In this document: piece by piece, positions 10,467 through 27,933 of the stretch | Position numbering within the stretch: the first letter of the stretch is position 1 | How the letters are laid out: the number at the start of each line of letters is the position of its first letter | From: Thalassovita sp. | Lineage (GTDB): Bacteria > Bacteroidota > Bacteroidia > Cytophagales > Flammeovirgaceae | Length of the DNA stretch: 64,000 nucleotides | Direction: 5' to 3' | Assembly (NCBI GenBank): GCA_002729595.1 | Contig: PBYL01000482.1 | Span: 1 to 64,000, forward strand | Notes under the pieces: generated by a model | The model's input: only the letters and a program-made list of their open reading frames with translations | Databases searched by the model: none | Told to the model about the DNA's origin: nothing | Translations under genes and position numbers: made by a program

Positions 10467-11237
10467 TTAGTACATCACTTTCGCGACACTTTTCATAGAT
10501 TGATTAGGAACAAAATTTATAATATTTGATTTAGGCTTTTGATGGAGCTGAAGATTTCTAGCTATCAATTCAAGGATTTCTTTTGTATGATCGAACAAGA
10601 AAAAATGCCCACCTGGAAACCAAACTACTTCCACTTTTTTACTGGTTTCTACTTGCCAATCTGTTATTTGATGGGTGGTAATGTTTTCATCAGTACCTAA
10701 CAGAAGCGTAATCGGCAAATTGAATGGCGGCGTTCTCTGGTAATTGAAATTTTTAATCACCTGAAAATCTGCCTGTAAAATTGGTTTAAGTATTTTAATC
10801 AGCCTTGGGCTATTCAAGATCTTTTCTGGTATACCTCCAATTTCTATAAGCTGGGTGATAAACTCTTGTTTATCAAGCACTTTTAAAATGGGTTCATCTT
10901 CTAAAGTCGAAGGCGCTTTACCACCAGATAGAAACAAATGCAGTGGCAAAGGAAGTCTACTTCGAGTAATCTTCTTAGTAAGCAAATAAGCCAATAAAGT
11001 ACCCATGCTGTGGCCATAAATGGCATAAGGTGGCTCTAAATAAGATTCTATTTGCTTGAGTATATCATCAATAATTTTATCCGGATTATAAATCAGTTGC
11101 TCAGTAAACCGAGTTCCTCTTCCTGGTAAATCAACAGGTATAATTTGTAAACTGGATGGAGCCATTTCTACAAATTGTTTGTAAGCAAACCTGCTTCCTC
11201 CTGCATATGGGAGGCATATTAAATTGGCTTTTTCCAT
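10467..11237 (-). CDS. Type II thioesterase (GrsT/TesA-like)
   Basis: This 256-residue alpha/beta hydrolase starts with the family-typical LICLPYAGGSRFAYKQF. Its triad is visible: S77 in GHSMG, D183 in LLGTDENI and H211 in FPGGHFFLFD. Type II thioesterases remove wrong or stalled acyl groups from carrier-protein phosphopantetheine arms; some release the finished chain. It is the last gene of the minus-strand operon containing an ACP, two ketosynthase-type proteins, reductase and dehydratase, so a proofreading role for that ACP is the natural reading. The preceding 186 bp contain several hairpins, so its expression may be tuned separately. Confidence 0.92.
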   Translation of the reverse strand: MEKANLICLPYAGGSRFAYKQFVEMAPSSLQIIPVDLPGRGTRFTEQLIYNPDKIIDDILKQIESYLEPPYAIYGHSMGTLLAYLLTKKITRSRLPLPLHLFLSGGKAPSTLEDEPILKVLDKQEFITQLIEIGGIPEKILNSPRLIKILKPILQADFQVIKNFNYQRTPPFNLPITLLLGTDENITTHQITDWQVETSKKVEVVWFPGGHFFLFDHTKEILELIARNLQLHQKPKSNIINFVPNQSMKSVAKVMY

Positions 11238-11274: not shown

Positions 11275-11424
11275 AATCAATCCGCAGATAACACCACGGA
11301 TTGATTGTTTGAATTATAGCAGAAAAGCAAACGAGCTATAATACTACTTTATAAATCAGGTCTTCAATTAGTGAAATCACTAATAAATATCTTTATCAAA
11401 TCTGTTATCAACGTAAATGTTGAT
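11275..11424 (-). promoter_or_regulatory. Cluster of four intercistronic hairpins before the thioesterase gene
   Basis: Four inverted repeats fill the gap between the TonB receptor and the thioesterase: ATCAAC 11407-11412 with GTTGAT 11419-11424; ATTAGTGA 11367-11374 with TCACTAAT 11377-11384; ATTATAGC 11313-11320 with GCTATAAT 11335-11342; and AATCAATCCG 11275-11284 with CGGATTGATT 11297-11306. None has a clear U-tract. They may attenuate read-through or stabilise the upstream mRNA. Confidence 0.5.
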
Positions 11425-13610
11425 TAGAGTAAACCGTCAATAGTTTGTTGTCTTCTATCCATTCCCCATGTTAAGAATACGCCCATCATCACGAATCTTG
11501 GAGCCAAAGGAGTAACTTCTCTCCTAATTCCTGTATCTACATTTGAGTATTCGTAACCAAACACTTGCTTGCTACCTAGAAGATTGCTCATAGAAAGAAC
11601 TACAATGGCATTGGCTTTTCTAATCTTGGTAAGATATGCCAGCAAAAAGCTTACATTGTGGTAATTCTGCACTTTGTCTGAAAGGAACTCGCTATCTGGT
11701 CTGTTTGGGTTAAAATATGGACGACCAGAACTATAACTATAAGTTAAACCAGTGCTCAAAGAAAGTTCGGGGATATATCTTTTCATTACCAAAGAAGCAG
11801 TGTGGTTAGCGGCAAAAGTTGGTTGAGCCAATATCGGATAATCCATAAACTTTCTTTTCGTATCGAGATAGGAATAAGACACCCAATAATCCAGATTTCT
11901 TATGGTCTTTTTGTCTCTCCAAAACAACTCAAAACCTTTTGCATAACCATATCCACCATTGGTGACACTAGGAACAGTTTCTATTAGGTTATGATATTTT
12001 TTATAGAAAATTTCTGTACGAATCGTACGCAAACTACTTCTTTTCTGATAACTCACAATGTAATGGTCGCTTCTACCATAATCAAGTCCATCGTAATACA
12101 AATACTCTCTATTTGGCTTTTGGTAATACTGTCCGTAAGAAACTAAAAACTGCTCTTGTTCGCTCAGTAAATAGGCTAGAGAAAGCCTTGGAGCTATATT
12201 CATTTTTTGTAAGAGCGTAGAATATTCCATTCTTACACCGGCTCTAGCTTTCAAGTTCTTAACTAATTCAATATTACTTTCGATAAATACTGAAGAAAAA
12301 TTATCTGTAAAACCTGCTACAGAATCGCTTCCCGATTCCACATCTCTCCATGTTGAATTTTCTGCCACATGTTGTACTTCACCTCCAAAATTAAGCTCGA
12401 AGTAATTGCTGAAATATTTGGTTAAAACTGTTCTTGCTTGGTACAACTGCGAACCATATTTTACACCTTGTTTGCTGTGTATTTGGTCATCTCCTCTTAC
12501 TTCGGTATAGTACTTATCGGTATTGGTACTTGCAGAGAGTCCGGTGTTAATTTTGAGATCGTCTTTTAACCAATCGCTGTAAGTCAGGTTGGTGTAAATA
12601 TTCGAATTATCTACATCTGCAAAGTCTTTATTGCCCAGATAATCCAGACTATTTTCATTTAAAGAAACAGCGCTAGTTCCGTACATACCTAAAAATTTAA
12701 GCATGCCTGTTTTAGAAGTCTTGGTTCTAAAATTGACTGAGCCGTTCAAATATTCTGGCATTTTCACAAAGTCTTTCGACTGTTTTACCACATTGTAGTA
12801 AGGTGCCAAGTTCATATAATTTACGGAGGAAGTAAACGATGACTTTTCGTTCTTGGCAAGTAGGTTCAAGTCTGCGCTTACTCCTACTGATGTAACGGAA
12901 GCTTCTGTGGTGCTTTGCTCTGGTAAATCTTGTGTTTCGAGAATGAGTGTAGATGATAATGCTTGACCGTACAAAGCAGAATAACCACCACTGCTAAAAT
13001 GTGAGCCTTTAAATAAATCGGGAGAAAAACGCCCTCTTTGTGCCACACCTGGTGTGCCTCTTTGGTAAAAGTTATTTACCATCATTCCATCTACAAATAT
13101 CTTGGTCTCATCTCCTGTTCCACCTCTTACAAACAAGCCTTCTTGTTCGCCAATTTGCTGTGTGCCGGGCATGGTTCTTAATGCTGATGTAATGTCTGAA
13201 TTAGAACCTCCGGTGGTCATTATATCTATGGGTTTTAATACAGTGGCTCGGTTTTGATCACTTGCTTCAAAATAGCGTGATGAGGTAACAGTAGCTTCTG
13301 CGAGTTCTAAAAACATCTCTTCCATACTGCCAGAAACTTCTATCGGTTCTGAGCCAACTGTTATTTTTTGTTCACTGTCTTTAAATCCCATTAGGTGGAA
13401 AACCAGTGTTTGCTCTCCGGTTTTTCTTGTGGTGAAAGTGAAAAATCCGTCGGGTCTGGATGTGGTGCCATCGTAACTGTCTTTTATGAACACATTGGCA
13501 CCCACAATGGGATTGTTTCTTTTGTCTTTTACATACCCTTGAATGGTAGTCTGTGCGTACAAAATCGTACTTGTAAGCACAAATAAAATGTTAAGTAATA
13601 ATGCTTTCAT
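11424..13610 (-). CDS. TonB-dependent receptor with carboxypeptidase-like N-domain
   Basis: The 728-residue protein has a signal peptide (ends at about ILYAQ, residue 20). A CarboxypepD_reg-like domain follows (about 23-105: IQGYVKDKRNNPIVGANVFI). The plug at about 125-240 includes FVRGGTGDETKIFVDGMMVNN. A barrel ends in strand VMMGVFLTWGMD plus a short tail. It is embedded in the biosynthetic operon, between the arginase-like and thioesterase genes. It could take up the finished product, for example as a metal complex, or provide self-recognition at the outer membrane. No SusD partner is present, so a glycan role is less likely. Cargo is unknown. Confidence 0.87.
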   Translation of the reverse strand: MKALLLNILFVLTSTILYAQTTIQGYVKDKRNNPIVGANVFIKDSYDGTTSRPDGFFTFTTRKTGEQTLVFHLMGFKDSEQKITVGSEPIEVSGSMEEMFLELAEATVTSSRYFEASDQNRATVLKPIDIMTTGGSNSDITSALRTMPGTQQIGEQEGLFVRGGTGDETKIFVDGMMVNNFYQRGTPGVAQRGRFSPDLFKGSHFSSGGYSALYGQALSSTLILETQDLPEQSTTEASVTSVGVSADLNLLAKNEKSSFTSSVNYMNLAPYYNVVKQSKDFVKMPEYLNGSVNFRTKTSKTGMLKFLGMYGTSAVSLNENSLDYLGNKDFADVDNSNIYTNLTYSDWLKDDLKINTGLSASTNTDKYYTEVRGDDQIHSKQGVKYGSQLYQARTVLTKYFSNYFELNFGGEVQHVAENSTWRDVESGSDSVAGFTDNFSSVFIESNIELVKNLKARAGVRMEYSTLLQKMNIAPRLSLAYLLSEQEQFLVSYGQYYQKPNREYLYYDGLDYGRSDHYIVSYQKRSSLRTIRTEIFYKKYHNLIETVPSVTNGGYGYAKGFELFWRDKKTIRNLDYWVSYSYLDTKRKFMDYPILAQPTFAANHTASLVMKRYIPELSLSTGLTYSYSSGRPYFNPNRPDSEFLSDKVQNYHNVSFLLAYLTKIRKANAIVVLSMSNLLGSKQVFGYEYSNVDTGIRREVTPLAPRFVMMGVFLTWGMDRRQQTIDGLL

Positions 13611-13762: not shown

Positions 13763-15004
13763 TTAATTTTTGATGTTAATCAGGTTTAGTAGATAAAGAA
13801 TTGTTTGTATGGCGGTTTGCATCGTGAGGTTTTCCTTGTCGTAATCTGGGTTGGTTTCTACCAGATCTAGACCGACTATATTTTTGTTTTGCAACACAAC
13901 CGAAAATAATTGCTTTATCTCTTCGAAATTGAAACCACCTGGAACTGGCGTAGCGGTACCTGGAGCCACAGATGGATCAAGTACATCAATATCAAAAGTG
14001 ACATAGTAAGGAACATCTGTTGGCAAATCGAAAGTTTTTCCTGCTTCCATCGCTCTTTTTATATCACTAAACCAGTAGATTTTTTGTCGGGCTTCTGGTC
14101 TTTGCCCCATGTTAGAAATTCCCCTAATTCCAAACTGATAAATTTGATTGAATCGAGCATCTTCTAAGCATTTAGAAACAAAATTACCATGATGGTGTGT
14201 TTTGTTACGATGCGTTAAATAATCGTATCGCGATCCGTAGGTATCTGTGTGAGCATCAAAATGAATGACATGTAGATCGGAATAATTATTTAAGGCAGCT
14301 TTTATGAGTGGATAACTAATTGAATGATCGCCACCCAAAAAAAACAGAACTACTTTTTTACTGAAAAGCTCATTGGCAATGGTGAATATTTTGTCGTACA
14401 CAAAGTTTCCTTCTTCACTTGTATTGATAAAGATATTGCCATAATCCTTAATCAACTCTTGCTGAAACAAAGAAGCTAGGTTTGTGAAATCTGCCTCTCC
14501 ATCTAGAAATTTGAAGTCTTCTGCTGTTGCACTTTTATTCAAATTAATCTTATAATGCTTCACCATTTCGCGCAGCTTATATGGAAAATTTCTAGAACCT
14601 GTAGACTCATTATTTCCTTTACCAAATGGTACGCCTACAAAAGAAATTTGTGGTTCAGATGAATGATTTTGATCTAACAATAAATTGCCTGTATTAAAAA
14701 GCCTGTTGGCAACAGGAGTAACTGTAATAGTTGCTTCTTCCTGCATTTCAGTGTCGAGTATCAATCCTTTTGACAGAAGAAAAGCAATCGTTTTTTCTAA
14801 TAAGGCATCTTGCAAGTCAAAGTGTTTTTCAATCTCAGTAAACAAGCGAGGCTTTTTTACATATTCGAGTATATCGACTATCATCGGCCCTACTTCGAAC
14901 ATATTTCCGCTGATAATGCTGTAAACTTTGGCTTTGCCATTTGGCTGCCAGTCAATCTCTGTAAATGGAGATTTCATTAAGCTGGTGATGGCATAATCTA
15001 TCAT
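13763..15004 (-). CDS. Peptide-arginase-like ureohydrolase with N-terminal PqqD-like domain
   Basis: The 413-residue protein is about 100 residues longer than ordinary arginases and agmatinases. The C-terminal domain keeps the binuclear-metal ligands: H227 in GGDHS, D250, H252 and D254 in DAHTD, and D338 and D340 in DIDVLDP. Residues about 24-85 (AKVYSIISGNMFEVGPMIVD then a helical and wing-like part to KGLIL) look like a PqqD-type leader-binding domain (RRE). The known OspR-type peptide arginases convert Arg to ornithine in ribosomal peptides. The invariant D-R-C of the nine neighbouring precursors supplies such an Arg. Its ATG overlaps the M50 stop in ATGA. The ureohydrolase fold is certain; a peptide substrate is inference. 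Confidence 0.87.
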   Translation of the reverse strand: MIDYAITSLMKSPFTEIDWQPNGKAKVYSIISGNMFEVGPMIVDILEYVKKPRLFTEIEKHFDLQDALLEKTIAFLLSKGLILDTEMQEEATITVTPVANRLFNTGNLLLDQNHSSEPQISFVGVPFGKGNNESTGSRNFPYKLREMVKHYKINLNKSATAEDFKFLDGEADFTNLASLFQQELIKDYGNIFINTSEEGNFVYDKIFTIANELFSKKVVLFFLGGDHSISYPLIKAALNNYSDLHVIHFDAHTDTYGSRYDYLTHRNKTHHHGNFVSKCLEDARFNQIYQFGIRGISNMGQRPEARQKIYWFSDIKRAMEAGKTFDLPTDVPYYVTFDIDVLDPSVAPGTATPVPGGFNFEEIKQLFSVVLQNKNIVGLDLVETNPDYDKENLTMQTAIQTILYLLNLINIKN

Positions 15005-16257
15005 ACTTTTTGAGCTCTGATGTTACGAACATAATTGCGAGAAACCTTGGTGTACTTGTAAGAGAAGTAAGTAATTACTCCCAAAGAGAAAAACGTTTTG
15101 GCATAAAACTCAATCGCACATATTGAAAAATCCATCGCTGCTATCTGGCTGAAAACCAAGCCTAAATCCATAATAGATTGAGCAATTAGTATCACTATAA
15201 ACTTAGCTATGTAGATAAAAAATGCATACTTCAATACAGAGTAAACTATCAAAAATGGATTTTTTAAGTTGATGTTTTTTAAAGCACTTTCATTCAGATT
15301 AATCGGTGCTTTAGGGAATAAATACTTTATAGCTTTCAACAAGTAAACATTTGATTGCTTTCTCAGATTTGGCAGATTAAACAAGTCGCTGTAAATCCAG
15401 TAACCATCGAACCTGAAAAATGGATTGAGATTAATTACCACTGTGCCCATGTTTAATATGATGATGTACATCAACACTTCAATTACTGTACTGTCGGTTA
15501 AATAGCGAAGTACATAAAATATCACCGTGTTTATGAGCAATTGCATGTAAATACCACCTAAGTTAATAATGGTTCGTTTCCAGCGATTCAGCTTCCAAAC
15601 GCCTGTGATATCAGCATACAAAACAGGCAAGGCTAGATAAAATCCGAAGCCAATGTTCTTAGGTTTTACACCATACATATATGAAGCTGCGGCATGTCCC
15701 ATTTCATGGAAAAACAAAACCATAAAAGCCAGTGGATAAAAGAGCAAAACATAATTGGCATTTCTTAAACACTCGCCAGTTTGTGCAGCAGTAGTGGCTG
15801 TATTGGCACCCAAAAACTGATTTACATAAAAGTAATTTACAGAGGCAGATCCAATAAACAAGATGGTAAACACTACCGGATGAAATGCATATTTAAATAC
15901 TTCTAGAAATATTCTGAGATGTTCAAATTTTACCAATGTCCACTGACCTTGAATGCCTGTAAGCGGTAACTGCTTTTTCTGACCTTCTGGAAGTGCTTTT
16001 TCAAACAAACCCAGCGGCTTAATGTGCTGCTCTATAATTCCAAATAAAGTGTCTTTGGTAAATTTATATTGATTGTTGCTCCAAATATTGAGAGATTCTA
16101 GCATCTCATCTGTAGATTTTTTCTCGGAAAGAAACCTGATAATTAAATACACAAGCTCCCCTACGTAATATGGTTTGTCGTTTACAGTTAGTAAAAATTT
16201 CTTCTTACCAGAAGCATCGATTTCTTCTATGGTATAGGTGGCTGTTAACTCATACAT
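15001..16257 (-). CDS. M50-family membrane metalloprotease with PqqD-like N-domain
   Basis: The 418-residue polytopic protein contains the zinc motif H184-E-M-G-H188 in a membrane segment. The second-half motif LNPFFRFDGYW carries D284 as third ligand; both are typical of M50 site-2-type proteases found in peptide natural-product loci. Residues about 5-88 precede the membrane part and look like a PqqD-type winged-helix domain (KKFLLTVNDKPYYVGELVYL then a helical part to PLGLF). It lies directly after the last precursor gene and overlaps the arginase gene by four bases. A leader-removing or release role at the inner membrane is likely; no dedicated exporter gene is seen nearby. Confidence 0.85.
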   Translation of the reverse strand: MYELTATYTIEEIDASGKKKFLLTVNDKPYYVGELVYLIIRFLSEKKSTDEMLESLNIWSNNQYKFTKDTLFGIIEQHIKPLGLFEKALPEGQKKQLPLTGIQGQWTLVKFEHLRIFLEVFKYAFHPVVFTILFIGSASVNYFYVNQFLGANTATTAAQTGECLRNANYVLLFYPLAFMVLFFHEMGHAAASYMYGVKPKNIGFGFYLALPVLYADITGVWKLNRWKRTIINLGGIYMQLLINTVIFYVLRYLTDSTVIEVLMYIIILNMGTVVINLNPFFRFDGYWIYSDLFNLPNLRKQSNVYLLKAIKYLFPKAPINLNESALKNINLKNPFLIVYSVLKYAFFIYIAKFIVILIAQSIMDLGLVFSQIAAMDFSICAIEFYAKTFFSLGVITYFSYKYTKVSRNYVRNIRAQKV

Positions 16258-16462: not shown

Positions 16463-16573
16463 TTATTTTTCACTGTAGATGCAACGATCTGCATCTGCTG
16501 CAACGGCAGTCATTTCGTGTCTTTCTTCAAGTTCTACTATGTTTAATGAGTCTTTAAGTATTTCTTTTGACAT
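16463..16573 (-). CDS. Precursor peptide 1 (type A, 36 aa)
   Basis: It starts MSKEILKDSLNIVELEERHE and continues M-TAVAADADRCIYSEK. I choose the ATG at 16573; an upstream extension to 16684 crosses a spacer and has no counterpart in the other copies. The leader of about 21 residues is nearly identical in copies 1-8. The core holds one Thr, one Cys and one Arg in the invariant DRC. Its protein is identical to copy 2. It is the last precursor before the M50 gene. Family resemblance to a published RiPP was not recognised; Arg is the presumed site for the arginase-like enzyme. Confidence 0.9.
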   Translation of the reverse strand: MSKEILKDSLNIVELEERHEMTAVAADADRCIYSEK

Positions 16574-16610
16574 GGTGATAAAGTTTATAATTGAATGAAA
16601 ATTGAAAAAT

Positions 16611-16688: not shown

Positions 16689-16730
16689 TGTAAGTAAAAA
16701 TTAAGGTATTACTGATTTTACTTGTTAGAA

Positions 16731-16841
16731 TTATTTTTCGCTGTAGATGCAACGATCTGCGTCAGCTGCAACAGCAGTCATTTCGTGTCTTTCTTCCAAT
16801 TCTACGATGTTTAATGAGTCTTTTAAGATTTCTTTTGACAT
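16731..16841 (-). CDS. Precursor peptide 2 (type A, 36 aa)
   Basis: The translated product is identical to precursor 1 (leader ending ELEERHEM, core TAVAADADRCIYSEK), though the DNA differs at several codons. The start is the ATG at 16841, preceded in the transcript by the same CTATCACC-type context as its sisters. The synonymous differences argue that the protein sequence is under selection rather than being a very recent copy. The stop is TAA. It is followed in the transcript by structured spacer 1. Confidence 0.9.
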   Translation of the reverse strand: MSKEILKDSLNIVELEERHEMTAVAADADRCIYSEK

Positions 16842-16879
16842 GGTGATAGAGTTTAAAATTTTATAAATATTTGAGGAGA

Positions 16880-17000: not shown

Positions 17001-17111
17001 TTATTTTTCGCTATAGATGCAACGGTCTGCATCAGCTGCAACAGCAGTCATTTCGTGTCTTTCTTCTAACTCTACAATGTTTAATGAATCTTTTAATACT
17101 TCTTTTGACAT
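17001..17111 (-). CDS. Precursor peptide 3 (type A, 36 aa)
   Basis: The leader differs from copies 1 and 2 only by Val for Ile at residue 5 (MSKEVLKDSL). The core TAVAADADRCIYSEK is unchanged. Stop TAA at 17001. It is separated from copy 4 by a short 69-bp spacer upstream and followed by a long structured spacer. The conserved DRC supplies Arg and Cys; Thr22 and Ser34 are the only hydroxy residues of the core. Confidence 0.9.
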   Translation of the reverse strand: MSKEVLKDSLNIVELEERHEMTAVAADADRCIYSEK

Positions 17112-17180: not shown

Positions 17181-17294
17181 TTATACTGCTTCTGTAATTG
17201 TGCAACGATCTGCTTCTGCTGCAATAGCAGTTAATTCGTGTCTTTCTTCTAATTCTACGATATTTAGTGCGTCTTTTAAGATTTCTTTTGACAT
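17181..17294 (-). CDS. Precursor peptide 4 (type B, 37 aa)
   Basis: It has leader changes S9 to A and M21 to L (ELEERHEL), and core TAIAAEADRCTITEAV. The stretch after DRC is CTITEAV in place of the CIYSEK tail of type A, giving two extra Thr. Like the other type B copies it is followed by a short spacer (69 bp) without the nested hairpins. Start ATG at 17294, stop TAA. Confidence 0.9.
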   Translation of the reverse strand: MSKEILKDALNIVELEERHELTAIAAEADRCTITEAV

Positions 17295-17455: not shown

Positions 17456-17566
17456 TTAAGCCTCTTTGTAAATGCAACGGTCAGCGTCAGCTGCAACAGC
17501 AGTCATTTCGTGTCTTTCTTCTAATTCTACAATGTTTAGCGCGTCTTTTAGGATTTCTTTTGACAT
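17456..17566 (-). CDS. Precursor peptide 5 (type A, 36 aa)
   Basis: The leader is as in copies 6 and 7 (MSKEILKDAL); the core TAVAADADRCIYKEA has no Ser or Thr after the Cys. The only hydroxy residue of the core is therefore Thr22, the only thiol Cys31. It is followed by a long structured spacer, as for all type A copies. Its start is exactly 190 bp from that of copy 6. Confidence 0.9.
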   Translation of the reverse strand: MSKEILKDALNIVELEERHEMTAVAADADRCIYKEA

Positions 17567-17639: not shown

Positions 17640-17756
17640 TTATACTAAGTCACCAGTAATGGTGCAACGATCTGCTTCTGCTGCTACAGCAGTCATTTCG
17701 TGTCTTTCTTCTAACTCTACAATGTTTAATGCGTCTTTTAGGATTTCTTTTGACAT
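17640..17756 (-). CDS. Precursor peptide 6 (type B, 38 aa)
   Basis: The leader ends ELEERHEM; the core is TAVAAEADRCTITGDLV. Compared with type A it has E for D at the sixth core residue and a CTITGDLV tail. Start ATG at 17756, stop TAA at 17640. It is a product of the 190-bp tandem duplication and is followed by a 73-bp spacer without the nested stems. Confidence 0.9.
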   Translation of the reverse strand: MSKEILKDALNIVELEERHEMTAVAAEADRCTITGDLV

Positions 17757-17829: not shown

Positions 17830-17946
17830 TTACACTAAGTCAGCACTAATAGTGCAACGATCTGCTTCTGCTGCTACTGCAGTCATTTCGTGTCTTTCTT
17901 CTAATTCTACAATGTTTAATGCGTCTTTTAAGATTTCTTTTGACAT
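17830..17946 (-). CDS. Precursor peptide 7 (type B, 38 aa)
   Basis: It is nearly identical to precursor 6; the tail is CTISADLV rather than CTITGDLV, so variation is confined to the residues after DRC. Start ATG at 17946, stop TAA at 17830. The spacer that follows is almost the same as that after copy 6, marking recent duplication. Confidence 0.9.
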   Translation of the reverse strand: MSKEILKDALNIVELEERHEMTAVAAEADRCTISADLV

Positions 17947-18106: not shown

Positions 18107-18217
18107 TTAAGCTTCTTTGTAGATGCAACGGTCGCCATCTGCAGCAACTGCTGTCATTTCGTGTCTTTCTTCTAATTCTACAATGTTCAATGCGTCTTTA
18201 AGTACTTCTTTTGACAT
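18107..18217 (-). CDS. Precursor peptide 8 (type A, 36 aa)
   Basis: The leader begins MSKEVLKDAL. The core TAVAADGDRCIYKEA has Gly for Ala directly before the invariant DRC. Start ATG at 18217, stop TAA at 18107. It is followed by a long structured spacer and preceded by the short 55-bp spacer after precursor 9. Confidence 0.9.
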   Translation of the reverse strand: MSKEVLKDALNIVELEERHEMTAVAADGDRCIYKEA

Positions 18218-18272: not shown

Positions 18273-18410
18273 TTAGATATCTACTTTGCCTGAACCAGTA
18301 TCTTTGCAGCGGTCTATATCAACCGATGCTGCTGTTAGTTCAAACCTGCTTTCAAGTTCTACAATTGAAAGTGCATCTTTAAGCTCTCCACTTATTAGTT
18401 TCTTATTCAT
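18273..18410 (-). CDS. Precursor peptide 9 (divergent, 45 aa)
   Basis: This is the first precursor after the ACP gene. The start is MNKKLISGEL, then KDALSIVELESRFEL and core TAASVDIDRCKDTGSGKVDI. It keeps the IVELE-R-E leader signature, the T-A at the core start and the DRC. It differs at most other positions and has a longer Thr/Ser/Gly-containing tail. It shows which residues are required by the shared enzymes. It may be the ancestral copy or yield a distinct product. Stop TAA at 18273. Confidence 0.87.
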   Translation of the reverse strand: MNKKLISGELKDALSIVELESRFELTAASVDIDRCKDTGSGKVDI

Positions 18411-18609: not shown

Positions 18610-18897
18610 TTATTGTACTAGTGATTCTTCAGCCAAACGGTTGTAGATCATTTCACTTAATACATTCACATTCTGGAAAGATGTTTCATTAAACTCAGAA
18701 GGAAGTATGCCGAACTCTTCAGACAAGCGAGAAGCAATTTCAAGAATAGCTAAAGAATCTTGGATGATACCTGGCTCTTCATCAGTTCCGAAAAATGGAT
18801 CTTCGTTTCCGATATCTTCTGGAGATGCGCCATCGATTTCAAGAGCTTCAATAATGCATACTTTGATTTTTTCCTGAATTTGAGATAAAGTTTCCAT
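18610..18897 (-). CDS. Acyl carrier protein
   Basis: This acidic 95-residue protein has the carrier-protein helix II motif QDSLAILEIA. S48 is the expected phosphopantetheine attachment site (DSL). The sequence is longer at the front than FabI-pathway ACPs and carries an EDPFFGTDEEPG loop before the DSL, which resembles carrier proteins of dedicated type II pathways rather than housekeeping AcpP. The pantetheinyl transferase at 23598-24251 would activate it. It lies between the active ketosynthase and the precursor array, and its cargo is presumably the chain for the peptide acyltransferase. Confidence 0.9.
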   Translation of the reverse strand: METLSQIQEKIKVCIIEALEIDGASPEDIGNEDPFFGTDEEPGIIQDSLAILEIASRLSEEFGILPSEFNETSFQNVNVLSEMIYNRLAEESLVQ

Positions 18898-18989: not shown

Positions 18990-20201
18990 TCAGCTAAAAC
19001 TTTGTATCGCAATGGCCGACATATTTCCAGCAAAACCAAAGGAGTTCGAAATCGCCGTATCGAATTTGTAATCGAGACCTTTGTCTTTTACGATTACCAA
19101 ATTGTGGTCTTCTGCTTCCAAAATCGGATCAGAAAGATTAATAGTTGGCGGAATAAATCCATCGTGCATAGCCACTGTTGTTGCAACCAGTTCCACACTG
19201 CCTGCTGCGCCTAAAGTATGCCCAGTCATAGACTTGGTAGAGCTTACAAACACCGGTCTTTTGTCTGCCAGTTTTCTTATGGCTTTAATCTCCATCGTAT
19301 CATTAGCAGCGGTAGCCGTACCATGCGCATTGATGTATTCCACTTTGCCTATATCGATCTTGCCTTGCAATAAAGCTTTTTGCATTGCTGAGTAAGCAAA
19401 ACCTCCATCAGGACAAGGAGCCGTTGCGTGATACGCTTCATTAATGGTCGAATAACCTTTTATTTCAGCATAGATCTTTGCATTTCTCTTCTTTGCAGAA
19501 CTTAGGCTTTCTAGTATTACAAATGCACCAGCATCACCTAAATTAAGACCATCTCTGTTTTTATCAAATGGCTTACATGCTCCTTTTGAGATTGCTTGTA
19601 GTGCATTAAAACCACTGTAAGTTAGTTCTGTAAATACATCTACACCACCGGCAATCATGTAATCTACTCTTCCTTTCGAGATAAAGTCGAAGCCTCTGCC
19701 TATTGAGTTCGTTCCTGCTGCGCAAGCTGTCGAGATAGTTGAAATAGGACCTCTTAGATCGTATTGCTTGGCAATGTTACCTCCGATAGTAGAAGTTGTA
19801 TGAAAGAGCAAGTTGATATCTTTAGCAGGTTCTCCGTCAATTTTGTTTTTTACCCATCTCATAAATGGATAACTCGCTCCTACTGAAGTAGCTACGGCTA
19901 CTCCCATTCTTCTATTATTTATTTTATCCATTTGCAAGCCTGCATCTTCAATGGCATCCTGTACTACTTTTTTAGATAGATCACTGAGAATCGTTGCGTC
20001 TTTTTCGTATAAATCGTCGTACAGTTCTGGTTCCAATATGCAAGCACTGTTGTTTCTGTAAACAGGCAAGCTGGTGTCAAATCTTCGAGTGGGAATTTGC
20101 TTTAATCCGGAGTTTCCATTGCGCAAATTGGTTTTAAATTCTTGCAAGTCTTTACCGATTGAGCATAGTATTCCCAGTCCAGTTATTACAACTCGTTCCA
20201 T
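18990..20201 (-). CDS. Beta-ketoacyl-ACP synthase, catalytically intact (KS-alpha type)
   Basis: I place the start at ATG 20201 (MERVVITGLG), giving 403 residues; the 26-residue extension to 20279 would overlap the reductase gene and lacks family residues. The catalytic set is complete: C160 in STACAAG, H293 in NAHGT, K323 and H328 in STKSMTGH. It is therefore a condensing FabF-like enzyme that elongates acyl-ACP with malonyl units. The operon also encodes a KS-like protein without the catalytic Cys, so the two could form an alpha/beta pair as in type II polyketide or aryl-polyene systems. It follows the FabG-like gene by 61 bp. Confidence 0.93.
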   Translation of the reverse strand: MERVVITGLGILCSIGKDLQEFKTNLRNGNSGLKQIPTRRFDTSLPVYRNNSACILEPELYDDLYEKDATILSDLSKKVVQDAIEDAGLQMDKINNRRMGVAVATSVGASYPFMRWVKNKIDGEPAKDINLLFHTTSTIGGNIAKQYDLRGPISTISTACAAGTNSIGRGFDFISKGRVDYMIAGGVDVFTELTYSGFNALQAISKGACKPFDKNRDGLNLGDAGAFVILESLSSAKKRNAKIYAEIKGYSTINEAYHATAPCPDGGFAYSAMQKALLQGKIDIGKVEYINAHGTATAANDTMEIKAIRKLADKRPVFVSSTKSMTGHTLGAAGSVELVATTVAMHDGFIPPTINLSDPILEAEDHNLVIVKDKGLDYKFDTAISNSFGFAGNMSAIAIQSFS

Positions 20202-20262
20202 AGCGTTTAATATTTGATGATTGATTATGAAATTGAATAAAGGTGTTTTACAATCATCTGCA

Positions 20263-21012
20263 TTATACGCCGATGCCACCGTCTATGGTAATCTCCTGCC
20301 CGATGATGTATTGAGGGGCTGCACTTGCTAGATAACTAACCAAATTTGCTACTTCTATAGAAGTTCCCATTCTTTTAAGCGGGCTTCTCGACATGCGCTC
20401 TTCAAAATAACCATTGTTTAGGTTTGAAGTCATATCTGTCTCGATTAAGCCAGGAGAAACACAGTTTATAATTACTCCTGAGCGAGCTACTTCTTTGGTA
20501 AGTGCTTTAGAGAATGAAACAATCGCTGCTTTTGAAGCTGAATAAGCTGATTGTCCTGGATTGCCTTTTTGGCCTGATAGGGATGTGATATTGATAATTA
20601 CTCCACGCTTCTGGCGAATCATCATCGGTAGTACATTGCGACAGGTGTTTACCACACTAGCCACATTGGTTTTTACTACCTTCCACCATTCATCGTCTGT
20701 AGTGAACATAAACGGGCGGCTATTTCCAAGAATTCCTGCATTGTTTACTACTACATCAATCTTCGGAAATTCTTTTTTGATATTTTTAAATAAGCTGGCT
20801 ACTTCTTTACTATCGCTCATATCGCACTTAAGTGCTTTTGCTGTCGGTAAATTGTGTTCTGCGATTTCATTTACGAGTGACTCAGCCATTTCTACCTTGC
20901 TTAAGTAGGTAAATATTACTCTGTAACCTTGATGAGCAAGTTCTAGTGAGATAGCTCTACCTATTCCCCGAGTGCCACCAGTTACAAGGGCTATTTTTTG
21001 ATGTGCTTCCAT
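20263..21012 (-). CDS. 3-oxoacyl-ACP reductase, FabG-like SDR
   Basis: The 249-residue classical SDR has nucleotide loop TGGTRGIGRA (11-20), NNAG (90-93), and catalytic S144 with Y157-x-x-x-K161 in SAYSASKAA. It ends in the family-typical IIGQEITIDGGIGV. It would reduce the beta-keto group made by the adjacent ketosynthase with NADPH. Its place between the TPR gene and the KS gene, and the dehydratase in the same operon, give a full reduce-and-dehydrate cycle. No enoyl reductase is present, so an unsaturated or polyene chain is the likely product. Confidence 0.93.
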   Translation of the reverse strand: MEAHQKIALVTGGTRGIGRAISLELAHQGYRVIFTYLSKVEMAESLVNEIAEHNLPTAKALKCDMSDSKEVASLFKNIKKEFPKIDVVVNNAGILGNSRPFMFTTDDEWWKVVKTNVASVVNTCRNVLPMMIRQKRGVIINITSLSGQKGNPGQSAYSASKAAIVSFSKALTKEVARSGVIINCVSPGLIETDMTSNLNNGYFEERMSRSPLKRMGTSIEVANLVSYLASAAPQYIIGQEITIDGGIGV

Positions 21013-21797: not shown

Positions 21798-23042
21798 TTA
21801 ATATTTCTTGAGAACCATACTGGTGGTATTACCTCCCAAATGGATGGAGTTTACAATAGCATAGTTGATTTTATCTTTTACCTCTATACTTTCTTCTGGT
21901 ATAATAATCTGCTTATTTACACCTTCCAGTACTTGATTTGGAAAGCCTGTGCCTGGTACCATTTCGTATTTTACACCCAGTGCTCCTGTAGCCAGCGAAA
22001 GTGTTGCTGATGCTCCCAGTGTTTCACCAGTTTTAGATTTAATAGTGGTATAGTAAACCTCTTCTTTTTTACACACATTTTCGATGGCTTTCGCTTCGTA
22101 GCTTTTTACCTGCCAAGGCAAGCAAGAACCGCCAACTACCAAATCCACATCGTTTTCGCTAATTCCTGTGTGTTGGATGGAATCTAACATAACAGAAGCC
22201 AAGTCGGTATGGGAGCGCTCTGTTAGCAAGTGATTTCCAATACCATCGCATCCGGTAGAATAGCCCAATACTTCTGCGTAGATAGGTGCATTTCTTTCGA
22301 GTGCGTGCTCCAGTTTTTCCATTACTACAAAGGCAGAACCTTCACCAAGAATAAGTTTTCCTTCCTCTTCAGGAGTGCCCAATTTTTCTTTGAGTGAAAC
22401 ATATTCTCCCTTTTCATTTTTAGGTGATAGTACTTTATCACTCAATACATAATTAAAAAAAGTAGAATCTCTTAGTTCATCAAAACCGCCACAGATCATA
22501 ACATCTGCTTTGTCGTCTTGCAGCAGATCGAAACCATAAGCTGCGCTGTTTTCTCCCAAAAGCATAGAGCTTGGGCCTCTTAATTTAAAAAAGCGAGTTA
22601 CATCTCCCAGAGCACAATTGGCCACTGTTTTAGTAAAGTTCAGCGGACTTACCTTATCTGCACCTCTTTCATACAGTTTAGTCAAGTAACTCTCGACCGC
22701 TGCATTAGCAGCTATATCTGTATTTAAGATCAACCCTAATCTTTCTGGTGAGAATGAAGGTAGGTCTAGCTGTGCGTCATCAATCGCCAAATGACAGCCC
22801 AGCATAGCCAATTGCGAATACCTCAGGGGAAATGGAAAACGTAAACCAGCTAAATAATTCTTTATTGAAAACTCTGTGCAAACGCCACAGTATTGTTTTT
22901 CTATTTCTTGGTATTCCCACTTTTCTCTAAGCGAGATACCAGATAAGTTTTGAGTAATTTTATCGATAAACGAAGCTTTTCCCACACCCATGCTAGACAC
23001 CGTTCCAACTCCGGTAATTACAATTCTTTGTTGATTTTCCAT
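21798..23042 (-). CDS. Ketosynthase-like protein lacking catalytic Cys (KS-beta / chain-length-factor type)
   Basis: The 414-residue protein has the overall thiolase fold of FabF (IVITGVGTVSSMGVGKASF at the start, KSKTGETLGASATLSLATGAL near the end). The active-site segment reads RGPSSMLLGENSAAYGF, placing N165 where Cys should be. The NAHGT His is replaced (VVGGSCLPWQ) and the KSMTGH His is Glu (KSKTGE). Such degenerate partners act as chain-length factors with an active KS. Together with the KS at 18990-20201 it implies a type II PKS or aryl-polyene-like chain. A structural or decarboxylating role is possible. Confidence 0.85.
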   Translation of the reverse strand: MENQQRIVITGVGTVSSMGVGKASFIDKITQNLSGISLREKWEYQEIEKQYCGVCTEFSIKNYLAGLRFPFPLRYSQLAMLGCHLAIDDAQLDLPSFSPERLGLILNTDIAANAAVESYLTKLYERGADKVSPLNFTKTVANCALGDVTRFFKLRGPSSMLLGENSAAYGFDLLQDDKADVMICGGFDELRDSTFFNYVLSDKVLSPKNEKGEYVSLKEKLGTPEEEGKLILGEGSAFVVMEKLEHALERNAPIYAEVLGYSTGCDGIGNHLLTERSHTDLASVMLDSIQHTGISENDVDLVVGGSCLPWQVKSYEAKAIENVCKKEEVYYTTIKSKTGETLGASATLSLATGALGVKYEMVPGTGFPNQVLEGVNKQIIIPEESIEVKDKINYAIVNSIHLGGNTTSMVLKKY

Positions 23043-23084: not shown

Positions 23085-23555
23085 TCAGGAGATATGAACA
23101 GTTACGCTACCTTTTGCTGCTACTTTGCCTTCGCAAATTACTTTGGCATCAAACTCAGAGAAACCCATTAGTTTGTGTTTAAACTTTACTTCTATTTCAA
23201 GTTTGCTCTCTGGCCTCACCTCTTTGTGAAAAGATACATTTTTAATTTTGATAGCTCTGCCAGAAGCTGGTTTCTGCGGAACCTGAACTTGTTCGGAATT
23301 GCCAAAGTTGAGCGCTTCTAATCTGCCGTATAAGCCGCAGGTTTGGAACATCATCTCTACCAGAATTACACCTGGCAAAAGTGGGTAGCCCGGAAAATGA
23401 CCTTGGAAAAAGATTTCATCTTTGCCAATCTCTTTATTGGCTGTGAGTGATTCACCAAACTTAAAGTCAACGATATTATCTACCAATAAAAATGGCGGGC
23501 GATGTGGCAATAGCGTTTCTGGTTTTGGGTAATCAATTTTCGTTTCGGTAATCAT
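23085..23555 (-). CDS. 3-hydroxyacyl-ACP dehydratase, FabZ-like hot-dog protein
   Basis: The 156-residue protein has LLPHRPPFLLVD (15-26), the motif FFQGHFPGYPLLPGVILVEMMFQ (split here as FFQGHFPGYPLLPG and VILVEMMFQ) with H53 and E67 as the expected catalytic pair, and the hot-dog end strand GKVAAKGSVTVHIS. It would dehydrate beta-hydroxyacyl-ACP to the trans-2-enoyl form. Without an enoyl reductase, repeated cycles would leave conjugated double bonds. It is shorter than typical DH domains of PKS and close to FabZ length. Confidence 0.92.
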   Translation of the reverse strand: MITETKIDYPKPETLLPHRPPFLLVDNIVDFKFGESLTANKEIGKDEIFFQGHFPGYPLLPGVILVEMMFQTCGLYGRLEALNFGNSEQVQVPQKPASGRAIKIKNVSFHKEVRPESKLEIEVKFKHKLMGFSEFDAKVICEGKVAAKGSVTVHIS

Positions 23556-23597: not shown

Positions 23598-24251
23598 TTA
23601 AAATTCTTTGACTAATTGGACTAAATCCACCTCTTTCGTTTCGATATCCACCGACTTCTGGTGAAAAGCGATACAACACACATAATCGGTATGAATATCT
23701 AGTTGATGGATGTAATAAGTATTTTGACCTTGATAGTAAATATTTTCTGGGCAGTAAATCTCTGTAAAAGCCATTCCGAGTCCGTTTCCATCTACTTTTC
23801 CTATTGCTTCTTTCTTTGCCCAAACAGTAATCTTGCTATGATTATCCATATCTTGATCTTCTAATGGATGGAGAAAAAAACTCGATGCTCTTTTACTAAT
23901 TTTTACCACATGTTGTATATCTATTCCCACTTTACACTGGGGAGCAATGGCGCAAATAATGATATCTTTTGAGTGCGAGATATTAAAATCTATCTGTAAG
24001 TTTTGAAAAAATGGTCTGCCATTTCCAGAATAATATATCTCTTGTAAAGCATCCTCATAATAGCCCATGTCTTTTAAACCATGTGATAACAGCAACTTGC
24101 CCGTGAGTGATAATGCTCTTGCTCTTTCTGCTTTATACATAGACAGACGCTTCTTTAGCACTGGAGGAAAACGCTCCATAATGCTTGTTACCAGCTCTGC
24201 AGAGGGTAACTGATCTATCTTTGTATAATATACCTGACAACTTTTGAGCAT
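23598..24251 (-). CDS. 4'-phosphopantetheinyl transferase, Sfp type
   Basis: The 217-residue protein has the PPTase motifs NISHSKD (90-96), VGID at 108-111 and W144-x-x-K147-E148-A-I-G-K152. D111 and E148 are magnesium ligands. The usual Glu after GIDI is Gln here (GIDIQ, Q113), a tolerated change in some members. It would attach phosphopantetheine to S48 of the ACP in this operon. It ends 42 bp before the FabZ-like gene. Encoding its own PPTase makes the module self-contained, as is common in transferred secondary-metabolite clusters. Confidence 0.88.
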   Translation of the reverse strand: MLKSCQVYYTKIDQLPSAELVTSIMERFPPVLKKRLSMYKAERARALSLTGKLLLSHGLKDMGYYEDALQEIYYSGNGRPFFQNLQIDFNISHSKDIIICAIAPQCKVGIDIQHVVKISKRASSFFLHPLEDQDMDNHSKITVWAKKEAIGKVDGNGLGMAFTEIYCPENIYYQGQNTYYIHQLDIHTDYVCCIAFHQKSVDIETKEVDLVQLVKEF

Positions 24252-24273: not shown

Positions 24274-25698
24274 CTATTTTGCGACTTTAACAGAATTGGC
24301 TTTTAGGAACTCAATTTTCACTTTTTCCCATGCATTAAACTGGAAGTGCTCGCACAGTAACAAGTAGACTGATTCGTGCGTGAGCTTACAAGCTGGCATG
24401 GTGACTATAGAAATAATGGTTTCGCCATTTTTTACATCTACTATGGCTTTTAGCACTTTTCCGGTGCTGTAGATTGCATTGGCTATTTCTTGAAACCAGA
24501 TGCTGCGACCTTCCACTTCAATCTGGTTTTTACTTCTGCCTAACACAAAGAGTTTTCCTGTTTCAGAGAAGTAAGCCATGTCTTCTGTGAGTATATTTTG
24601 TTGTGGCTTTACATGAGGAGGCAACTCATGCATATATCCATTCATTACCGAAGGACTCTCAATTAACACTCTGCCAATTTCGTTCGATTTGGTATCATTC
24701 CCTTTGGCATCCAACACCCTCATTTTCACACCTTCTAGTGGATAACCAACTGAATCGATTTCAGGATCTGTTGGCGTTTCAACTTTGTAAGTACTCACTC
24801 TTGGTCCAGCCTCTGCAAGTCCGTATGTTTTTATAAATGGACAGCTAAAAACATTCATGGCTCTTTGTAGAGACTCTTTTTCTATGTGATTCCCACCTAC
24901 TGTAATAAACCTCAGCGAGCTAAAATCACCTGTAAAAAATCCTTTCTCCTGCATGTAATTGATCTGCCTAATCATAGGTGGCACAGTAAACAAAGAGGTT
25001 GCTTTACTAGCAGGAATCAATCTTGGAATTTGGGTAATGGCAAACCTTGCATCTGCCAAAACAATTTTACTACCTACATACAAATGGCTGAGAAACTGTG
25101 CGATCAAACCATATGAATAGTTCATGGGTAAAGCCATTATGGTAGTATCATCTGGGCGAATCCCGATCGATTTTACATTGGCTTTGATGTTAGCAATGGT
25201 GCCAACTGCACTCAGTTTTATCACCTTGCTAATGCTTGTACTTCCAGAACTAGTCACGAGCAAAGCGGTATCTTCTAAGTACTTATGAGGATTATAGTGA
25301 CCGTTTTTAAAGAGAAAGCTGATATTGAAAATAGATTCGCATTTCAGCTTTCTTTCAATCAGAGATTTGTAAAGTGCCGAACTCGTATTTTTTTCGTGAG
25401 CCAGATAGCCATAGCAGTTCAATTTTTCAAAATCGATGGCATTTTCTTGTAATTCATTTACAATAAGCGGAATGGCTTCGAGCTGTAAAAGTGCTAAGAA
25501 TATAATAGATAGTTCAATAGAATTCGGGAACGAGAGCACAATGATTTTTCCCTTATCAATTCCCTGCTTTTCTAGCTCTTTTGCATAGAGGTTTACTTTT
25601 GCCCATAGCTCGCTATAAGTAATACCTTTTCCGCTTTCGATGAGTGCAACTGAGTTACTACAATTCTCTTTGAGAATATTAATGATGGAATGATTCAT
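24274..25698 (-). CDS. AMP-dependent acyl/aryl-acid ligase
   Basis: The 474-residue adenylate-forming enzyme has the Ser/Thr/Gly-rich loop LLVTSSGSTSISKVIKL (about 154-170), ITVGGNH, KTYGLAEAGPRVSTY, and hinge LGRSKNQIEVEGRSIWF. The C-terminus ends NSVKVAK, where the catalytic Lys is expected. Enzymes of this type load a carboxylic acid on CoA or carrier protein, often the starter unit of type II or aryl-polyene chains. The substrate pocket cannot be read reliably by eye. It is preceded by the acyltransferase and followed by the PPTase in the same operon. Confidence 0.88.
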   Translation of the reverse strand: MNHSIINILKENCSNSVALIESGKGITYSELWAKVNLYAKELEKQGIDKGKIIVLSFPNSIELSIIFLALLQLEAIPLIVNELQENAIDFEKLNCYGYLAHEKNTSSALYKSLIERKLKCESIFNISFLFKNGHYNPHKYLEDTALLVTSSGSTSISKVIKLSAVGTIANIKANVKSIGIRPDDTTIMALPMNYSYGLIAQFLSHLYVGSKIVLADARFAITQIPRLIPASKATSLFTVPPMIRQINYMQEKGFFTGDFSSLRFITVGGNHIEKESLQRAMNVFSCPFIKTYGLAEAGPRVSTYKVETPTDPEIDSVGYPLEGVKMRVLDAKGNDTKSNEIGRVLIESPSVMNGYMHELPPHVKPQQNILTEDMAYFSETGKLFVLGRSKNQIEVEGRSIWFQEIANAIYSTGKVLKAIVDVKNGETIISIVTMPACKLTHESVYLLLCEHFQFNAWEKVKIEFLKANSVKVAK

Positions 25699-25734: not shown

Positions 25735-26907
25735 TTAAGACGCCAATTTAGATTGAATTAAAACCCGTTTTTCTATCAGGTTTTGTAAGAGTGAGTCAGA
25801 GAGATTTGCAGCAATGCTATACTCAGGATTCACGGTTTCTCGCTTATCCAAAAAGCTTAATAACTCTTCGTTAATTTCGTAGGCACTATAGCTTGCCCTG
25901 TTAAACAGAAAACAGTTTTCGTCTAGTTTAAAAAGGCTATACTCCGTTTTATTGAAGACTAAATTTTCCACAGCTCCGCCATTATCTGTTGTATTTTCTA
26001 TACTGATTACACGCTTTATATTATCCCAATCGAGGTATTTGTGCACATAAAGCCAACCCTCCCATTGGTCGTAATAAGTAAGCAGTTTTTCTTCGAGTAT
26101 CTTATACAAATAAGAGGTAACTGTGTAGCAATAATCTTCTTTTCCTTTGGTCCACTCAAGTGGATTAATCGGATCATAAAATTTGAGTTTTACGTCTTGT
26201 TCATGGTCATCATACCAGGAGATCACCGGAATAACAGGCACTTTTGCGGCATAAGAAAGGGTGGTAATTCCCTTTCTCGAATAGAGGTTTTGATGTAAAA
26301 AAGGAATATTCAAAAATTGAGGGTCTTTTTTATAGATACCTCCTACTCCGGTGTTACCATCCAGGTATGCTACAACTGATCTGCCAGATCGAATGTGTTT
26401 AAATAGTCGGATTGCAATGTCGTGTTGTTCTGCTGCTTCGAGCCCAAAATAGGACGATTGGTTAAAGTTGGCATGTATTGAGTTTACAATTTCAGTAACT
26501 TTTATGTGCTGCTTATTATAGGTGTTTTGGTCTACCAAAAGTACAAAGTCTATGCCTGCACTGGCCAATACCCCTATAATTGACCGGTAAGAACCCAAAT
26601 GATAAGTACAGTATATAGCTGGTGTTTGTTGTTCTAGACAACTGGTGTCGCCTATGCGGTTGATGTTGTTTATAAGGTCAGGATACGACGGTTCTGTCAC
26701 CAATCGTGAGTTGTTGTAAAGGATGTTATAGTATATGTTTTCATGCGATGATACTGGAACAGTTGGCAAAAAGTTGGATAAATTTGCTGATAAAAAATTG
26801 AAATCTTTTAGTTGCTTTTCTTGCTTCTTACGCTGTTCGCGTTTGGTAATATGCTCTTTGAGACGATGATAGTTTTGTTTGTAAAGTTGGCTGCTGATAG
26901 TTTCCAT
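25735..26907 (-). CDS. LpxL/HtrB-like acyltransferase with C-terminal PqqD-like domain
   Basis: The 390-residue protein has the lysophospholipid/lipid A acyltransferase layout: TYHLGSYRS (H103 as the catalytic His of an H-x4-[D/E]-like motif, here ending in Arg), then YLDGNTGVGG, and KGITTLSYAAKVPVIPVISW. Residues about 310-388 (FKLDENCFLFNRASYSAYEI then a helical and wing-like part to EKRVLIQ) look like a PqqD-type leader-binding domain. No transmembrane anchor is visible at the start. An acyltransferase carrying a RiPP leader reader should move the ACP-made chain to the peptide, perhaps to ornithine formed by the arginase-like enzyme. That substrate is inference. Confidence 0.8.
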   Translation of the reverse strand: METISSQLYKQNYHRLKEHITKREQRKKQEKQLKDFNFLSANLSNFLPTVPVSSHENIYYNILYNNSRLVTEPSYPDLINNINRIGDTSCLEQQTPAIYCTYHLGSYRSIIGVLASAGIDFVLLVDQNTYNKQHIKVTEIVNSIHANFNQSSYFGLEAAEQHDIAIRLFKHIRSGRSVVAYLDGNTGVGGIYKKDPQFLNIPFLHQNLYSRKGITTLSYAAKVPVIPVISWYDDHEQDVKLKFYDPINPLEWTKGKEDYCYTVTSYLYKILEEKLLTYYDQWEGWLYVHKYLDWDNIKRVISIENTTDNGGAVENLVFNKTEYSLFKLDENCFLFNRASYSAYEINEELLSFLDKRETVNPEYSIAANLSDSLLQNLIEKRVLIQSKLAS

Positions 26908-27496: not shown

Positions 27497-27933
27497 GGTT
27501 TTATAGTTTTTGCGTTTTCTTCTTCTTTGGATATGGCTTCGCCACATTGGGTCACAAGCCCTATTTTTAATAAATTATATGTCTCCTCCGCCTCTTTCAG
27601 GTTTCTTAAAAACTCTGGAGCTTCTTTCTTTTTGTCTTCCCTTCATCTCCTTTGTTATTTCAAAGATGCACCAGAATATTCGCCATTTGAAAATTATTAC
27701 ACGAACCCGCTTTTTATAAGTACTAATATTTCAAAAAAGATTTTTATAGTGTTTATGGTGGATAAAACCCCGGTTTTGGAGGTATAAACCAGAAATAAAA
27801 TAGATAACTATGGACTAATCCGGTATTTTGAGATGAATAGCAATGATTTCTTTATAACTAATTAATAGTAATTCTGGATTTGAAGGATATTTTCTATATT
27901 ACCCAATAGAAAAATTTGACTTGCTATACCATT
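27497..27933. other. Divergent control region between the NusG-like and LanB genes
   Basis: 437 bp that must hold both the promoter of the biosynthetic operon (minus) and that of LanB (plus). It is AT-rich (for example TAGATAACTATGGACTAATC near 27799-27818). I see no strong palindrome or recognisable riboswitch. Frames crossing it, such as 27479-27787, lack coding features. A long 5' leader for NusG-type regulation is possible. Confidence 0.6.

Follow-up and report, generated by a model that had tools for sequence, protein, structure and literature searches.

Why do three enzymes of different folds, encoded in one bacterial operon, each carry an additional domain of similar layout? This question is raised by a stretch of 64,000 nucleotides from Thalassovita sp. 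(assembly GCA_002729595.1, contig PBYL01000482.1, positions 1 to 64,000), here called the window, which lies on contig 482 of a draft genome of 8.0 Mb in 487 contigs. A run of minus-strand genes, from 27547 down to 10467, forms a long operon-like block. It begins with an UpxY antiterminator, an LpxL-like acyltransferase, an AMP ligase, a phosphopantetheinyl transferase, a FabZ-like dehydratase (DH), two ketosynthases (KS), a conserved protein of 220 residues, a ketoreductase (KR) and an acyl carrier protein (ACP), and continues with nine small precursor genes, an M50 protease, an arginase, a TonB receptor and a thioesterase; upstream of the block are genes for a LanB, a two-component pair and a LanC-like protein. 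Homologous clusters are present in four other genomes. We consider it fairly probable that the block makes acylated ribosomally synthesized and post-translationally modified peptides (RiPPs), and that an enzyme of PatA/LpxM fold would acylate them, guided by their leader, at an (Orn-)Cys site.

Precursor peptides with a common leader

The nine tandem precursors comprise 36-45 residues and read MSKEILKDALNIVELEERHEMTAVAAEADRC... plus short variable tails, all of them with the leader motif IVELE(E/S)R(H/F)E(M/L), typically IVELEERHEM. An earlier note, made from the window alone, had proposed that the enzymes of the operon share a peptide leader, and this proposal is supported: the motif occurs in 9 of 9 precursors and in ten of ten genomes (the window and nine others) whose clusters include an M50 relative. 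Two-gene operons that have no M50 gene (see below) carry a different leader. In full clusters, the precursors sit between the ACP and the M50 gene and the Thr and Cys of the core are found at fixed spacing. Cys is present in all cores, including those of the two-gene precursors and those of genomes G969, G723 and G1071, which contain neither Lys nor Arg. Several of the precursor genes at 16463-18410 are separated by near-identical intergenic stretches, which suggests recent duplication.

Fused domains in three enzymes

The arginase, the M50 protease and the acyltransferase lie where the earlier note had placed them, all on the minus strand, and the extra domain it had claimed for each was recovered as a segment of about 75 residues outside the catalytic matches. 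The Pfam matches of the arginase (residues 119-404 of 413) and the M50 protease (residues 179-252 of 418) leave the claimed N-terminal segments uncovered. In models of homologues, the LpxM/PatA match is confined to the catalytic part of the acyltransferase and the agmatinase matches begin after the N-terminal domain of the arginase. The C-terminal domain of the acyltransferase is present as claimed, but spans about residues 315-386 instead of 310-388. All three segments are kept in homologues, as judged from alignments of 5 arginases, 10 M50 proteins and 26 acyltransferases.

In order to compare the segments with one another, we used hhalign, with slices of the same proteins (48 comparisons, at most 4.3% probability) and of other cluster proteins (123 comparisons, at most 5.2% save one) as controls; the lone high control, at 10.9%, was the M50 domain against the C-terminal part of the AMP ligase. 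Set against these controls, the likeness of the arginase domain to the M50 domain (62-76%) and to the acyltransferase domain (34-39%) is clear at the sequence level. The comparison of the acyltransferase domain with the M50 domain (13-25%) and the matches of an RRE-like region of LanB, used as query against each of the three domains (11-19%), lie barely above the highest control. When the LanB region served as target, the arginase domain scored 13.5%, but the M50 and acyltransferase domains 2-3%, no higher than controls. Since their scores are the weakest, these latter pairs rest mainly on structure. The PqqD family of Pfam, PF05402, matched none of the three proteins and nothing else in the genome or in relatives at E 0.01; as a control, the same search gave a match in 3 of 14 known genomes. 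The designation "PqqD-like" in the earlier note thus stands for the fold, as described next, but not for membership in the Pfam family. A search of 390 genomes of the class with the arginase N-terminal domain returned only the window itself with confidence.

Two structural models were made with AlphaFold, both of homologues rather than of the window proteins, in which a precursor and its neighbouring enzymes were joined in one chain by reading stop codons of in-frame loci as glycine; such read-through models are informative for the fold only. The model of locus L011 (precursor and acyltransferase, 32 sequences, mean predicted local distance difference test (pLDDT) 82.9) shows a C-terminal domain of three strands followed by three helices (E368-373, E376-381, E386-390, H392-399, H407-411, H413-421; block pLDDT 81-90). 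In the model of locus L074 (precursor, M50 protease and arginase, 12 sequences, mean pLDDT 68.9), the N-terminal domains of the M50 protease (E122-127 to H184-198) and the arginase (E582-586 to H636-645) both have the same βββ-ααα order, with block pLDDT mostly about 60-83. In structure comparisons of the L011 model, the rows that reach the end of the C-terminal domain are ThcOx 91-198 (Z 4.9, 83 aligned residues) and MccB 1-79 (Z 4.0, 65 aligned), which are RiPP recognition element (RRE) regions of RiPP enzymes; low as they are, these Z values gain weight only because both proteins are RiPP enzymes. The ThcOx alignment ranges from 3 to 426 and possibly includes the leader strand. For the L074 model, only ureohydrolases were among the matches listed. 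The strict definition of an RRE is a winged helix-turn-helix in exactly this βββ-ααα order (PMC12710340, the main text of which contains neither the word acyltransferase nor the word arginase). The idea of the earlier note that unrelated folds have gained a like accessory is borne out by the homologue models, in which each of the segments follows the strict RRE topology. The models thus strongly indicate an RRE fold for the three domains, which would allow them to dock the leader.

Could these domains be ordinary winged-helix modules that serve regulation or dimerisation and bind no leader? A weak HTH_45 match on the arginase segment, below the curated cut-off, would fit such a role, and regulators of this kind are known false positives among RREs (PMC12710340). 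However, the domains are fused to three catalytic enzymes beside precursors, their strands come first and their helices second, as in RREs, and the acyltransferase domain structurally matches RRE-bearing RiPP enzymes. We consider this explanation very improbable.

Arginase and the Arg-Cys motif

The catalytic part of the arginase belongs to PF00491, the L074 homologue model matches agmatinases with Z of about 30 and the Mn ligands H227, D250, H252, D254, D338 and D340 are invariant; PF12640, the family of OspR-type peptide arginases, gave no match at E up to 1. The window and genomes G1043, G944 and G1034 have an RRE-arginase, and Arg directly precedes Cys in every core. In G328 (locus L012), the arginase adjoins an acyltransferase, and a peptide encoded upstream, whose leader differs, contains AVRCNNRC. 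Overall, Arg precedes the conserved Cys in 5 of 5 genomes with an RRE-arginase and in 0 of 6 without one (p 0.002, shared ancestry ignored). Genome G1028, a single contig with 100% completeness, has kept synthase, acyltransferase, M50 protease and TonB receptor; its cores read AVC, and no arginase of the RRE-arginase family was found in the whole genome at E 1e-10. For an action of the arginase on the Arg before Cys, this covariation is the strongest evidence we have.

Because the Mn ligands are intact and Arg covaries with the enzyme, we infer that the target of the arginase would be Arg in the invariant DRC motif, which it would turn into ornithine. Two peptide arginase families, PF00491 with RRE and the FlmR/OhkR type, adjoin the acyltransferase in different genomes, and selidamides bear N-acyl-ornithine (PMC12703449, PMC13060382). 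By analogy, the Orn delta-amine could be the only acceptor, and Cys could serve otherwise, for example in a methyllanthionine with the Thr after dehydration by LanB, in line with the fixed Thr-Cys spacing in all full clusters. Against such a role of Orn, G1028 retains acyltransferase and synthase, yet has lost both arginase and Arg, and the cores of three genomes are free of Lys and Arg. The methyllanthionine part faces a LanB that is not always linked and LanC-like proteins without zinc-ligand motifs. We therefore regard selidamide-like acylation of Orn only as rather unlikely. NisC carries the zinc-ligand motifs WCYG and CHG. The LanC-like proteins read W(A/N/T)x(S/G)D and F(F/Y/R)(N/Q)G in 3 of 3 cases (window 33416-34558, L001:2658-3740 and L074:5146-6255) and, by these residues, are probably no active cyclases; no chain of the Protein Data Bank (PDB) matched them. 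The LanB is full-length by PF04738 and PF14028 and is linked in the window, L001, G1043, G944 and G969. In the M50 protease, H184, E185, H188, D284 and G285 (HExxH plus downstream DG) are invariant, and the NCBIfam model daptide_HExxH matched with 2.6e-31, under its cut-off.

An acyltransferase family beside RiPP precursors

The acyltransferase matches PF03279 with E 0.01 (2.6e-8 for a relative), and the catalytic part of the L011 model resembles PatA and LpxM (Foldseek 3.2e-12; VIA Z 21.4-22.1 over 231-255 residues, rmsd 2.8-4.1), so that the predicted fold confirms a remote LpxL homologue. The acid of the HX4(D/E) motif is lost in 32 of 32 homologues (R in 26, Q in 3, N in 2, L in 1), whereas the His is kept; we therefore do not file the enzyme in the LpxL family and speak of a shared fold only.

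The family occurs in 37 of 370 sampled genomes of the order. In about 20 loci of Cytophagales (family f4), its gene immediately follows a precursor gene (type MKKQFxIK...AKxE...CC), mostly after a gap of 11-27 bp, and no other maturase is visible in the two-gene loci examined. Among 23 distinct two-gene precursors, M1, F5, I7, K25 and E27 are invariant and Cys occurs in all; these operons look like a minimal peptide-acylation system. Elsewhere, the acyltransferase lies near other RiPP maturases, namely grasp-with-spasm enzymes in G969 and radical SAM enzymes in G751 and G076. In G949 (L059:4828-12737), it adjoins a peptide arginase of the FlmR/OhkR family (E 2.3e-121, over cut-off), in a cluster that also holds two DD(I/V)LF precursors and a FlmE/OhkG radical SAM enzyme; this layout suggests an acylation step for the DD(I/V)LF orphan family. 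The claim of the earlier note that the acyltransferase is a peptide-modifying enzyme is supported by its position as the sole enzyme beside a precursor and by these other maturases. No LpxL-type acyltransferase of a RiPP pathway was found in the open-access literature.

The acyl chain synthase

Among the clusters checked, one ketosynthase (KS2) keeps Cys-His-His in 5 of 5, whereas the other (KS1) has lost all three in 6 of 6; the pair is therefore of the ketosynthase/chain-length-factor (KS/CLF) type. Matches in the PDB include chains B and C of 9s5h, which are distinct chains of the same entry. We saw no gene for an enoyl reductase in the cluster; with KR and DH but without this enzyme, a polyunsaturated chain is predicted, as in aryl polyenes or flexirubins. 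In G1071 (L063:10319-11950), the acyltransferase is immediately followed by a flexirubin-type tyrosine ammonia-lyase (FlxA, match over cut-off), and KS and ACP genes lie farther along; the lyase hints at an aryl starter unit.

Aryl-polyene clusters also have KS/CLF pairs and include LpxL-type acyltransferases. The block could therefore consist of two neighbours, namely a RiPP cluster and, unrelated to it, a polyene-lipid cluster with a lipid acyltransferase of its own, the C-terminal domain of which would have a ligand other than a leader; in some genomes, LanB and synthase genes are indeed not linked. However, acyltransferases without a synthase are found with precursors alone, with only an arginase, or alongside RiPP maturases of the radical SAM or ATP-grasp type, and the precursors of full clusters lie between the ACP and M50 genes. 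Two mere neighbours are improbable in our view.

Proposed pathway

In the pathway that we favour, leader-guided acylation at the (Orn-)Cys site, the RREs of acyltransferase, arginase and M50 protease, and probably of LanB too, would dock the common leader IVELEERHEM. The arginase would then turn the Arg before Cys into Orn. The AMP ligase would start the synthase (KS/CLF, KR, DH and ACP), which would build a probably polyunsaturated acyl chain, and the acyltransferase would carry this chain from the ACP to the (Orn-)Cys site of the core. Dehydration of the conserved Thr in the core may fall to LanB, and the M50 protease would cut off the leader at the membrane. As acceptor, we put the Cys thiol first, at slightly less than an even chance; in its favour, Cys occurs in every core, also where the acyltransferase is the sole enzyme and where Lys and Arg are absent. 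The Orn delta-amine is a possible but less likely candidate, and the N-terminus or another residue a doubtful one. If LanB leads to a methyllanthionine of Cys with the conserved Thr, Orn would gain as acceptor.

Several observations weigh against this pathway. PF05402 and the NCBIfam models did not confidently recognize the three domains. In the L011 model, residues 12-54 of the precursor are disordered (pLDDT <50) and the leader forms a strand of three residues only (7-9, pLDDT about 64); in the L074 model, the leader is undocked and disordered, with a linker of about 70 residues of untranslated sequence in between. The loss of the HX4(D/E) acid means that catalysis by the acyltransferase is not guaranteed. 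The LanB gene lies outside the cluster in G1028 and G1034, and acyltransferases of family f123 (L060-L061, L064-L066) have no visible precursor. The syntenic relative, the Cyclobacteriaceae metagenome-assembled genome L001 (single match of one contig scan), has a contig that stops within the KR gene, before the precursors, and no M50 gene was found in its assembly.

A wider reading, which we hold to be tentative and on balance unlikely, is that PatA/LpxM-fold enzymes with an RRE form a separate, widespread class of RiPP acyltransferases in Bacteroidota, which would acylate the Cys thiol first, followed by S-to-N transfer to the preceding Orn where an RRE-arginase is present, with the two-gene operons as the minimal lipidation system.

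Other features of the window

Coordinates are collected in Table 1. The f123 acyltransferases are longer, with 440-469 residues, and adjoin a possible lipoprotein gene. The TonB receptor at 11424-13610 accompanies the cluster in five other genomes and perhaps serves uptake or release of the product. At 43632-63646 lies a separate region that, by eye, resembles a polysaccharide-utilisation locus, with a sigma/anti-sigma pair, SusC/SusD-like proteins and proteins similar to glycoside hydrolases. A search for the acyltransferase and the arginase in a plasmid collection gave no match.

Table 1 Features of the gene cluster in the window and of the two-gene operons
Feature	Position	Strand	Evidence or remark
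UpxY/RfaH-type antiterminator, operon head	26975..27547	-	NF033644 5.4e-47 (over cut-off)
Acyltransferase domain, PatA/LpxM fold (predicted)	25966..26907	-	Foldseek LpxM 3.2e-12 (L011 homologue model); HX4E -> HX4R (HLGSYR)
Acyltransferase C-terminal RRE-like domain, residues 315-386	25750..25965	-	βββ-ααα in L011 homologue model
AMP-forming acyl ligase (putative starter loading)	24274..25698	-	PF00501 1.4e-49
4'-Phosphopantetheinyl transferase	23598..24251	-	
FabA/FabZ-like dehydratase	23085..23555	-	PF07977 1.5e-22
Chain-length-factor-like ketosynthase	21798..23042	-	without Cys/His/His
Ketoreductase (short-chain dehydrogenase/reductase)	20263..21012	-	
Ketosynthase	18990..20204	-	Cys-His-His intact
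Acyl carrier protein	18610..18897	-	DSL motif; PF00550 0.0006; kept in homologous clusters
Precursor 1	18273..18410	-	variant leader LESRFEL; core ...DIDRCKDTGSGKVDI
Precursor 2	18107..18217	-	core MTAVAADGDRCIYKEA
Precursor 3	17830..17946	-	core MTAVAAEADRCTISADLV
Precursor 4	17640..17756	-	core MTAVAAEADRCTITGDLV
Precursor 5	17456..17566	-	core MTAVAADADRCIYKEA
Precursor 6	17181..17294	-	core LTAIAAEADRCTITEAV
Precursor 7	17001..17111	-	core MTAVAADADRCIYSEK
Precursor 8	16731..16841	-	core MTAVAADADRCIYSEK
Precursor 9	16463..16573	-	core MTAVAADADRCIYSEK
M50 RRE-like N-terminal domain, residues ~5-88	15994..16245	-	βββ-ααα in L074 homologue model; hhalign
M50 site-2-type membrane protease domain	15001..15993	-	HEMGH, DGYW; Pfam 9.2e-9
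Arginase RRE-like N-terminal domain, residues ~14-90	14735..14965	-	βββ-ααα in L074 homologue model; hhalign
PF00491 ureohydrolase domain of arginase	13763..14734	-	Pfam 7.9e-55; GGDHS, DAHTD, DIDVLDP (all Mn ligands)
TonB-dependent outer-membrane receptor	11424..13610	-	relatives in four other full clusters and G969
Type II thioesterase-like hydrolase, operon end	10467..11237	-	homologues in other clusters
LanB-type dehydratase, full-length, divergent	27934..31065	+	PF04738 6e-143; PF14028 2.7e-65
LanC-like protein	33416..34558	+	without usual zinc-ligand motifs; PF05147 1.4e-12
Two-gene operons, precursor and acyltransferase	L011:9743-11237		also loci L003-L005, L027-L047

Relation to known systems

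Lipidation of RiPPs itself is already known. Selidamides (kamptornamide, phaeornamide) and nostolysamides are ribosomal peptides that follow the same logic of arginase and acyltransferase and carry fatty acyl groups on Orn or Lys side chains (PMC12703449, PMC13060382), but they use GNATs and pfam12640 peptide arginases, whereas we find a PatA/LpxM fold and PF00491, each with an RRE. The only candidate acyltransferase found in the cluster has the PatA/LpxM fold, unlike the GNAT of selidamide pathways; neither a GNAT nor a LanKC gene turned up in the cluster. In lipolanthines, goadvionins and lipoavitides, too, a RiPP is joined to a chain from a cluster-encoded polyketide or fatty-acid system, but by N-terminal acylation of class III lanthipeptides by a GNAT (PMC13060382), whereas the synthase here is of the KS/CLF type. 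Enteropeptin KgrD is likewise a PF00491-type arginase acting on a RiPP, with Arg next to Cys (PMC12703449); it acts after thiomorpholine formation, whereas in the window cluster we saw no gene for a radical SAM enzyme. The Dyb/Chr lipoprotein-RiPP hybrids are also lipidated RiPPs of Bacteroidota (PMC12636315), but take the Lgt/Lsp/Lnt route via a signal peptide, and no lipobox-type signal is evident in the window precursors. With aryl-polyene and flexirubin systems, the cluster shares a KS with degenerate partner, KR, DH, ACP and ligase and the lack of an enoyl reductase, but their acceptor is a lipid and the one proposed here a ribosomal peptide. In the case of the DD(I/V)LF family, whose precursors, arginase and radical SAM enzyme accompany the acyltransferase in L059, published work shows only the conversion of Arg to Orn, with no known end product and no acyltransferase named (PMC12703449).

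What would be new is that, in a single polyene-RiPP pathway, both an acyltransferase of PatA/LpxM fold and a PF00491 arginase carry a fused RRE. In the open-access literature found, RiPP lipidation relies only on GNATs or the lipoprotein pathway (PMC13060382, PMC12636315). If our reading is true, an RRE-guided acyltransferase of lipid A/PatA fold would be another route to RiPP lipidation, and a portable one, since the enzyme brings its own leader-reading domain; the peptide tailoring enzymes would come to include PF00491 arginases with an RRE of their own, and the DD(I/V)LF orphan family would have a candidate next step. The polyene-type synthase, finally, predicts coloured lipopeptides, which would offer a visible handle on the products.

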